Source: Nitrospirota bacterium
Lineage (GTDB): Bacteria > Nitrospirota > Thermodesulfovibrionia > Thermodesulfovibrionales > UBA6898
DNA: 51,742 bases
Direction: 5' to 3'
NCBI GenBank assembly: GCA_021811105.1
Contig: JAJZPM010000021.1
Location: 1 to 51,742 of the forward strand
The notes under the pieces were generated by a model. It was given only the letters and a program-made list of their open reading frames with translations. It was not told the DNA's origin and did no database searches. The position numbers were made by a program, and so were the translations under genes. Below are positions 4,128 to 51,584 of the stretch, in pieces; within the stretch, counting starts at the first letter, position 1; each line of letters begins with the position of its first letter.

Positions 4128-4547
4128 ATGTTGATGCCGAAGAAGGTTAAATTCAGGAAGATGCAGAAAGGGAATATGAACGGCAAGGCCTACACCGGCT
4201 CGGAGGTCTCCTTCGGCGAGTTCGGACTGAAGGCGATGGAGCCGGGCTGGGTCTCGTCGAGGCAGATCGAGGCCGCCAGGATCGCGATCAACCGGCATGT
4301 GAAAAGGGGCTGCAAGGTGTGGATCAGGGTCTTCCCTGACAAGCCGATTACAAAGAAACCGGCCGAAACGAGAATGGGAAAGGGCAAGGGTGCGCCCGAA
4401 TACTGGGTTGCCGTCGTCACGCCGGGAAGGGTCCTCTACGAGATCTCGGGCGTGACCGAGACCCTCGCGAAAGAGGCGTTCCGGCTTGCCTCGCATAAGC
4501 TTCCTGTCTCGACGAAGTTCGTGAAGCGTGAGGAGGGCGTGCTATGA
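4128..4547 (+). CDS. rplP: 50S ribosomal protein L16
   Basis: L16 organises the tRNA-binding region of the 50S subunit. The 139-residue product has [15 protein letters not shown] at the N-terminus, [20 protein letters not shown], and the conserved [15 protein letters not shown] block. The stop overlaps the rpmC start by four bases. Confidence 0.98.
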
Positions 4548-49518: not shown

Positions 49519-49636
49519 TCACAAACCTCGTTGTTCGCTTCCGCGGGTAGCAAAACGGGCGATTTCCCGATATACTTCTGTCAAAGGCTGAGTGATCGCC
49601 GTTGGCGACATAATCTTAAGCATGAGAGGAAAAGAC

Positions 49637-49882
49637 ATGGTTAAATCCAAGACAACCGCAAAGACCGGCACCAGGAAAGCGGCAGGCACGACTGCTGCAA
49701 AGAAGACCAAGGCAAAGAAGACTGTTGCAAGGAAACCTGCAAAAAAGGCTGCGGGGATGAAGGAGGGGAGCAGTTACGTCTGCGGAGTCTGCGGACTCGC
49801 CGTCACTGTCGACACAGCATGCGGCTGTGCAGAGACCGCCCATCTCATCTGTTGCGGAAAGCCGATGACGACGAAGAGGTAG
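49637..49882 (+). CDS. Histone H1-like tail fused to a desulforedoxin-like zinc/iron ribbon
   Basis: An 81-residue protein. Residues 1-45 are Lys/Ala/Thr-rich with AKK and KKT repeats, as in bacterial H1-like DNA-binding tails. Residues about 47-78 hold a metal ribbon: YVCGVCGLAVTVD, CGC, and LICCGKPM, matching the C-x2-C ... C-C layout of desulforedoxin and the N-terminus of desulfoferrodoxin, with two extra cysteines between. ATG 49637 has GAGAGGA seven bases upstream. Function unknown; possibly nucleoid-associated with a redox or metal sensing end. Confidence 0.7.
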   Translation: MVKSKTTAKTGTRKAAGTTAAKKTKAKKTVARKPAKKAAGMKEGSSYVCGVCGLAVTVDTACGCAETAHLICCGKPMTTKR

Positions 49883-49991: not shown

Positions 49992-50282
49992 ATGTCCCCG
50001 AGATATAAGAAGCCGCGTATCTGCGGATGCCCGATGAAGGGCAAGGCGTTCAAGCCTACCGGCGTGCCCCTGAAGGAGATCGAAAAGATCGCGCTCTACA
50101 GGGACGAACTCGAGGTGTTGAAGCTCTGCGACATGGACGGACTCACGCAGGAAGAGGCAGGAGAGAAGATGGGAATATCGAGGGGCACCGTGCAGAGGCT
50201 CCTGTCGGAAGCCAGAAGAAAGACGGCGACCGCCCTTGCGGAATGCAAGGCCCTTGTTTTGGAAGAAATCATATGCAAATAG
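49992..50282 (+). CDS. DUF134 family HTH regulator
   Basis: A 96-residue DUF134 protein: RICGCPMKGKAFKPTGVPLK with conserved cysteines at the N-terminus, then a sigma-70 region 4-like HTH (about 45-75: DELEVLKLCDMDGLTQEEAG, EKMGISRGTVQRLLSEAR). Genes of this family are usually paired with a NifX/NafY-type protein, as here, 10 bases downstream. It is probably a small redox- or metal-responsive transcription factor. Confidence 0.9.
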   Translation: MSPRYKKPRICGCPMKGKAFKPTGVPLKEIEKIALYRDELEVLKLCDMDGLTQEEAGEKMGISRGTVQRLLSEARRKTATALAECKALVLEEIICK

Positions 50283-50292
50283 GAGGCTTGTC

Positions 50293-50673
50293 ATGAAAGT
50301 ATGTTTCCCGGTAGAACAGGTTGATGGTATGAAGAGCAGGGTGTTCAACCATTTCGGATCGGCGCCCTTTTTTATCGTCGTCGACACCTCTACGAATGCA
50401 GTCTCGACGATCACCAACAGGGACCAGCACCACGCGCACGGTGCCTGCAATCCGGTCCTGGCGCTCGATAACCAGAGCATCGACGCGGTGGTAGTAGGCG
50501 GTATCGGCGGAGGAGCACTGAACCGTCTGAACCAGGCCGGCATCAGGGTATACCGGGCCGCGGTCGAAAACGTGAAGGGTAACGTGGCGCTCTATCTCTC
50601 GAACGGTCTTCAGGAGTTCGGGATGATACATGTCTGCGGAGGACACTCCGACGGGGGAGGCTGCGCCCACTAA
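50293..50673 (+). CDS. NifX/NifB C-terminal-type iron-molybdenum cofactor binding protein
   Basis: A 126-residue member of the dinitrogenase iron-molybdenum cofactor biosynthesis family: VCFPVEQVDGMKSRVFNHFG, FFIVVDT, and VVVGGIGGGALNRLNQAGIR, with a His/Gly/Cys-rich tail (CGGHSDGGGCAH). Such stand-alone proteins bind Fe-S or heterometal clusters; nitrogenase genes are not in the window. ATG 50293 is preferred because AGGAGG lies six bases upstream. Confidence 0.9.
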   Translation: MKVCFPVEQVDGMKSRVFNHFGSAPFFIVVDTSTNAVSTITNRDQHHAHGACNPVLALDNQSIDAVVVGGIGGGALNRLNQAGIRVYRAAVENVKGNVALYLSNGLQEFGMIHVCGGHSDGGGCAH

Positions 50674-50888: not shown

Positions 50889-50918
50889 ATGACAACGTCC
50901 CGCGGGAGAGGCTATAAT
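50889..50918 (+). promoter_or_regulatory. Promoter of the 218-residue protein gene
   Basis: ATGACA (50889-50894), an 18-base spacer and a perfect TATAAT (50913-50918), ten bases before the start at 50928. The transcription start would be very close to the ribosome site. Confidence 0.45.
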
Positions 50919-50927
50919 GAGGCGGAA

Positions 50928-51584
50928 ATGCCGGACCTCAGAAAATACTCATCTTATGCGATCATGTATGAACTCAACAACAGGGAGTTCAGGAAGAAAC
51001 TCGGCCTTTTCCCCGAGGAACTCCGATATTATGTCATCCTGGCAAACAGCATTATAGGGGCCGAAAACGCAAAAAGAGTCGAGGGGACCCCTGGGGCGGT
51101 CATCAAAGACGGCGAAGAATTTGTGGCGAGGCTTCTGGGGATGATGGACCCCGGGCAGGATGCCGCGTTCAGGGAGGTCCTCGAGACCTACCTTGTCGAG
51201 ACGATGAAGGACGAGTTGAGATGCTGCTGCCCGAACTGCGCTTGCTTCGAAGAATGCCTCGACATCGGAAATTTGGCAGTGGGAGGCCTTTTCGAAAGGC
51301 GGGCCAACGGTGAGGAGACCGAGGAACTGAAAAAGGAGATCGCGCTTCAGGTCGCCGCCGCCTTCGAGCGTACACCCCACGTCGATACGGACTCGGCCCA
51401 CCGGCTCTGCGAAAATTTCAGGCACCAGTATTCGGCATCCGGCATAGGAGAGGTCTTCGGCAGATACACGGAGATCGCCGCAGTGCTGCGGGATACCTTC
51501 GGCATCGACTACCGGAAGATCCAGCAGGAGATGGTGCTGCTGAACATGGAGTTCTGCGAAAGAAACATGCCCGGAGACCGCTGA
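50928..51584 (+). CDS. Hypothetical protein with cysteine cluster
   Basis: A 218-residue soluble protein I do not recognise. It is mostly helical and has one dense cluster near residue 100 (RCCCPNCACFEECLD) that could hold a metal or Fe-S cluster, plus single cysteines near the C-terminus. There is no signal peptide or catalytic motif. GAGGCGGAA before ATG 50928 supports this start; an earlier ATG at 50889 lies within the promoter region. Confidence 0.65.
   Translation: MPDLRKYSSYAIMYELNNREFRKKLGLFPEELRYYVILANSIIGAENAKRVEGTPGAVIKDGEEFVARLLGMMDPGQDAAFREVLETYLVETMKDELRCCCPNCACFEECLDIGNLAVGGLFERRANGEETEELKKEIALQVAAAFERTPHVDTDSAHRLCENFRHQYSASGIGEVFGRYTEIAAVLRDTFGIDYRKIQQEMVLLNMEFCERNMPGDR

Follow-up and report, generated by a model that had tools for sequence, protein, structure and literature searches.

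A Nitrospirota protein family that joins an H1-like Lys/Ala tail to a predicted desulforedoxin-like domain

Introduction

The desulforedoxin of D. gigas is a dimer. To our knowledge, little is known about bacterial nucleoid proteins with a fused metal or redox centre. The protein described here resembles known systems in each of its two parts. Its cysteine-rich part has the CxxC...CC ligands and the GxPM end of the desulforedoxin/desulfoferrodoxin N-terminal domain (PF06397; 1dxg, 2ji1), whose fold it is tentatively predicted to share, and its basic part shares a Lys/Ala/Pro/Thr composition, variable length and disorder with chlamydial Hc2 (PF07382) and with the KPAA tails of AlgP and PhaF. 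In vitro, DNA is bound by tails of the KPAA type, and AlgP and PhaF are DNA-associated and connect granules with the nucleoid (PMC9239181). The HTH-Dx-SOR superoxide reductases of SORGOdb (PMC3116461) provide a precedent for a DNA-binding part combined with Dx, since they likewise place a DNA-binding-type N-terminal part before the desulforedoxin domain. Within the same lineage, tailed SWIB and GroES proteins carry the same type of tail on a small folded domain.

The family differs from each of these systems. Compared with PF06397 desulforedoxins, its cysteine pairs are separated by 18 or 19 residues rather than 15, most members have an extra CGC, the members form a distinct clade, and there is a basic N-terminal tail but no superoxide reductase domain or neighbour. 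Unlike the tails of Hc2, AlgP and PhaF, the tail is N-terminal, shorter (19-71 residues) and joined to a metal-knuckle domain. In the HTH-Dx-SOR proteins the N-terminal part is an HTH, which is folded, and the desulforedoxin domain is followed by SOR; in the tailed family that part is a polycation predicted to be disordered, and SOR is missing. The folded domains of the tailed SWIB and GroES proteins are unrelated to the one considered here, and the GroES tail is C-terminal. A search of open-access PMC full text found no published description of an H1-like tail joined to a desulforedoxin-like domain.

The gene and its product

The gene occupies positions 49637-49882 of the + strand of the window, by which we mean the whole stretch of Nitrospirota DNA that was analysed (51,742 nucleotides of contig JAJZPM010000021.1); the parts of the gene and of its leader given below are on this strand. 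It encodes an 81-residue protein, and the translation reads MVKSKTTAKTGTRKAAGTTAAKKTKAKKTVARKPAKKAAGMKEGSSYVCGVCGLAVTVDTACGCAETAHLICCGKPMTTKR*. The start codon is ATG, preceded by GAGAGGAAAAGAC, and a purine-rich ribosome-binding site lies at 49624-49636. The same frame is open for 15 codons farther upstream, with a GTG at 49592, but family members begin at a homologous M-A/V-x-x-K. The basic part is N-terminal, and we use the term tail in that sense.

The tail (residues 1-41; 49637-49759) is rich in Lys, Ala, Thr and Pro, and is followed by the desulforedoxin-like domain (residues 43-78; 49763-49870), with the pattern CxxC-x19-CC. The first invariant ligand pair, Cys49-x-x-Cys52, is encoded at 49781-49792, and the second, Cys72-Cys73, which forms part of a CCGKPM motif, at 49850-49855. 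Between them lies an additional, non-invariant cysteine pair, Cys62-Gly-Cys64 (49820-49828). In the domain, dN is far below dS for all 21 pairs computed, and dN/dS is ≤0.27 wherever synonymous sites are unsaturated, the value of 0 given by saturated pairs being no real estimate. Codon usage across the whole gene is mixed (Lys AAG 11, AAA 4; Ala GCA 8, GCG 2, GCT 2, GCC 2), and Tandem Repeats Finder (TRF) gave no strong tandem repeat in the tail DNA, its one weak hit being a 15-base, three-copy repeat at 70%. The tail is thus not a plain DNA repeat.

Upstream of the gene, TATACT at 49571-49576 is a probable -10 box, and the five nearest relatives have it at the corresponding position. Just past the probable start point lies a short inverted repeat, TCGCC-GTT-GGCGA (49596-49608), which is a weak candidate for a leader hairpin or operator. 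TATACT followed by a GC-rich inverted repeat is also present in the leaders of L004-L007, L010, L013, L014, L016, L019, L023 and L024, and the differences between species preserve the pairing, as judged by eye. The folding energies of the leaders are ordinary (a -10 was recognised in 31 leaders, of which just four have a shuffle p <0.05, and is missing in the other eight of 39), and the combination of TATACT with CGCC/GGCG occurs at two sites in the window's own genome versus five for a reversed-pattern control. Nothing credible was returned by an Rfam search.

The tailed class and ordinary desulforedoxins

A search of 150 relatives, own genome included, gave 58 matches: 35 tailed copies in 33 genomes and 23 short ordinary desulforedoxins (one of the latter, G106:C53, was not read). 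In order to remove bias from the tail, the domain alone was used as the query against 395 genomes of the phylum. This yielded 36 strong matches in 34 of the 395 genomes (E ≤1.0e-17), and all 36 are tailed; the next E value is 1.9e-6, so that a gap of 11 orders separates them from the ordinary tail-less desulforedoxins that follow. The description of these as tail-less is based on 23 ordinary sequences that were read, which include few of the weak domain-only matches, and on a Dx-SOR-type protein (L137) without such a tail. The domain-only search contributed four extra tailed copies (G262, G335, G351 and G103), and the joint set contains 39 tailed copies in 37 Nitrospirota genomes. A tree of the domain residues, built on few columns, separates the 39 tailed from these 23 ordinary sequences at 100/100.

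The earlier note had proposed, from the letters of this one gene, a basic tail fused to a desulforedoxin-like ribbon, and the same architecture recurs in all 39 copies. It had also named the finding that would undo this proposal, namely that the tail is a local low-complexity insertion missing from homologues; no tail-less homologues of the same kind were found, and a local insertion or frameshift artefact was ruled out by the 39 tailed copies out of 39. Tail and domain have stayed together across dozens of related species, and we therefore consider this to be a real protein family.

A scan of genome contigs, which reaches close relatives only, found four loci, all in Nitrospirae/Nitrospiraceae. 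Plasmids and phages gave no match and no viral relative was found, and a mobile element was dropped as a candidate for these reasons. At one locus (L133 of G262, at 4343 and 5136), an ordinary and a tailed desulforedoxin lie approximately 0.9 kb apart on opposite strands.

The Lys/Ala tail

Tail length ranges from 19 to 71 residues in the 39 copies, with a median of 40. The composition is 31% Lys, 26% Ala, 11% Thr and 6% Pro, and the combined 1,672 tail residues include 573 Lys/Arg, 31 Asp/Glu and no aromatic residue (F/W/Y). The net charge is at least +7 in all 39 copies, the lowest value being +6 under a slightly longer definition of the tail. Sequence and length are thus variable while composition is constant, which fits what is expected for a disordered polycation. 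For the 81-residue protein, AlphaFold confidence in the tail is near 47 (59.5 for the full-length model), and the tail is predicted to be disordered; with its Lys/Ala/Pro/Thr composition and lack of aromatic residues, it has the traits of the HC2/AlgP type. Comparable K/A stretches are present in just 2 of 405 neighbouring ORFs. The nearest relatives that the earlier note gave for the two parts are supported: seven of 35 members match the HC2 profile ("Histone H1-like nucleoprotein") at E ≤0.01 (best 3.6e-6), and 20 of 35 match Pfam Desulfoferrod_N at the same threshold (best 8.4e-7). The 81-residue protein itself has no match to HC2 at E ≤1, and scores 17.1 bits with Desulfoferrod_N, under the gathering score of 23.

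The cysteine domain and its predicted fold

Cys49, Cys52, Cys72, Cys73, Gly53, Val58 and Met77 are invariant in the 35 aligned rows, and the pattern CxxC...CCxx[PQA]M is present in all 39 copies. The earlier note had described a ribbon of CxxC, CGC and CCGKPM; the CxxC and CC elements hold throughout the family, but CGC is not fixed. As CxC is found in just 31 of 39 copies, we regard it as an addition and not as part of the core site. The gap between the cysteine pairs is 19 residues in 33 copies and 18 in the other six, and so the tailed class departs from the CxxC-x15-CC found in all 23 ordinary desulforedoxins examined, which is also the desulforedoxin spacing given in PMC3116461.

When modelled alone, the domain has a pLDDT of 80.8. 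The best Foldseek match of this model is the Dx domain of superoxide reductase (probability 0.99, E 0.33), with nothing at E ≤0.001. In a structure comparison, desulforedoxin (1dxg) ranks first (Z 5.0; 1.4 Å over 34 residues; 38% identity), and MCM domains, which we take to be zinc ribbons, follow at 4.1, within 1 Z. Desulforedoxin also ranks first in a profile search of PDB sequences (E 0.0011). The predicted fold is compatible with desulforedoxin, with modest scores. No HTH or SOR domain was matched in the 81-residue protein at E ≤1.

Genomic setting

The neighbours of 34 copies in 33 genomes have no gene in common beyond close relatives. These comparisons used 33 stretches and the window, with neighbouring ORFs taken by simple ORF picking and no gene finder; the two copies of G048 share one stretch, and one of them served as the anchor. 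Because the neighbours vary between genera, the tailed gene appears to work alone, and an operon-based function was dropped, as no neighbour is kept beyond close relatives. Downstream of the gene in the window (49992-50673) are a DUF134 protein and then a dinitrogenase iron-molybdenum cofactor (NifX-like) protein; the nearest relative, G001, lacks this pair at the corresponding position, and the pair was therefore discarded as a clue. Farther on, at 50889-51584, a 231-residue ORF contains a CCCPNC motif; neither Pfam nor NCBIfam gave a credible match for it.

Proposed working and alternatives

The reading that we prefer, with slightly less than even confidence, is that of a small protein, acting on its own, whose desulforedoxin-like M(Cys)4 domain is kept at the nucleoid by the disordered polycation tail. 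The cysteines of CxxC and CC would bind one metal ion, presumably iron (or else zinc), and the domain would pair with a second copy, as in the desulforedoxin of D. gigas. The two flexible Lys/Ala tails of this putative dimer would then bind the backbone of DNA, their presumed partner, with no sequence preference, in the manner of the KPAA tails of AlgP and PhaF. The outcome would be a DNA-coating or bridging protein that brings a metal site, or a centre for one-electron redox reactions, close to the chromosome. A coupling of nucleoid binding to iron or oxygen state, as the earlier note suggested, is possible by analogy. We also consider a bolder version, which is speculative and distinctly improbable: iron loss or oxidation in a dimeric M(Cys)4 knuckle might decide whether the two H1-like tails stay joined, and the bridging of the chromosome would then respond to oxygen or iron with no transcription factor in between. 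The protein would in that case belong to a nucleoid-associated set of these Nitrospirota, several members of which bear such a tail.

The domain could instead be structural, with the four cysteines holding zinc in a dimerisation knuckle of an H1-like DNA-compacting protein that neither transfers electrons nor senses. MCM domains, the second-best structural neighbours and tied in Z with desulforedoxin, point this way, as do the spacing of 18 or 19 residues versus 15 in ordinary desulforedoxins and the lack of linkage to redox genes; the adjacent CC followed by GxPM is a desulforedoxin signature, however, and it is desulforedoxin that leads the PDB profile search, and we consider a purely structural role rather unlikely. 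Another possibility concerns the partner of the tail, since Lys/Ala tails can in principle also bind polyphosphate, RNA or ribosomes, and the protein might act there and not on the chromosome. KPAA-tailed AlgP associates with polyphosphate granules, yet the same source, PMC9239181, describes the AlgP and PhaF tails as DNA-binding too. H1-like tails in this lineage are also found on a paralogue of GroES, which is unlikely to belong to chromatin, but another tail carrier, SWIB, is a chromatin-type domain, and a Waddlia SWIB protein has ChIP peaks genome-wide (PMC6426960). On balance, action on a different polyanion seems improbable.

The protein could also be a plain electron carrier, for example for superoxide reductase, with an incidental tail. 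In the window's own genome superoxide reductase is present (C39), no ordinary desulforedoxin passes the cut-off, and the tailed protein could thus be the partner of that reductase. Across genomes, however, superoxide reductase is present in 9 of 19 tailed genomes scanned (own genome included) versus 9 of 13 with an ordinary desulforedoxin. In 8 of those 13 genomes the ordinary gene and that for superoxide reductase share a strand and lie within about 1.3 kb of each other, whereas 0 of the 19 tailed genomes have their tailed gene so placed, the nearest being 12 kb away (G017). Together with the presence of the tail in every copy, these figures make a simple carrier very doubtful. There is only the slightest chance of a low-complexity insertion or spurious reading frame, which the low complexity of the tail and a 145-codon frame on the opposite strand might suggest, given the 39 tailed copies of 39, the purifying selection on the domain, the mixed codons and the gene's own ribosome-binding site. 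The family is compact, conserved and based on a single gene, and the idea of a metal or redox centre on the nucleoid is approachable here with one purified protein.

H1-like tails on other proteins of the lineage

Matches to the HC2 profile (E ≤0.01) came from 22 of 41 relatives, and the carriers of K/A tails were identified from 16 loci or stretches that were read. The window's own genome encodes a second GroES with a long C-terminal K/A tail (L160; G000:C45:205439-206044; Cpn10 E 1.2e-23), and such a tailed second GroES (Cpn10) paralogue is present in many of these Nitrospirota, including L140, L145 and L150; a K/A segment occurs in 9 of 10 recognised GroES ORFs (10 recognised of 18 loci). 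No GroES with an H1-like tail is known to us, and a literature search for tailed GroES found none. SWIB proteins with N-terminal Lys/Ala tails (L147, SWIB E 1.2e-28; L153; L155; L196-L213) form the other group, with a K/A segment in all nine recognised ORFs (9 recognised of 23 loci).

Because H1-like tails are also carried by SWIB and GroES, we regard tail fusion as a habit of the lineage, which points to a lineage that puts such tails on several unrelated domains. For the same reason, the tail alone does not imply a link between redox state and DNA, and the tail type shared with GroES and SWIB may serve a more general purpose. Stand-alone Lys/Ala proteins were also seen. Some of them, small proteins in the own genome (L159; G000:C31, about 82740-82940) and in L142 and L161, end in CCRG or CCMG; these CC[RM]G-ending proteins are a different kind of protein in which a K/A tail and two adjacent cysteines occur together.
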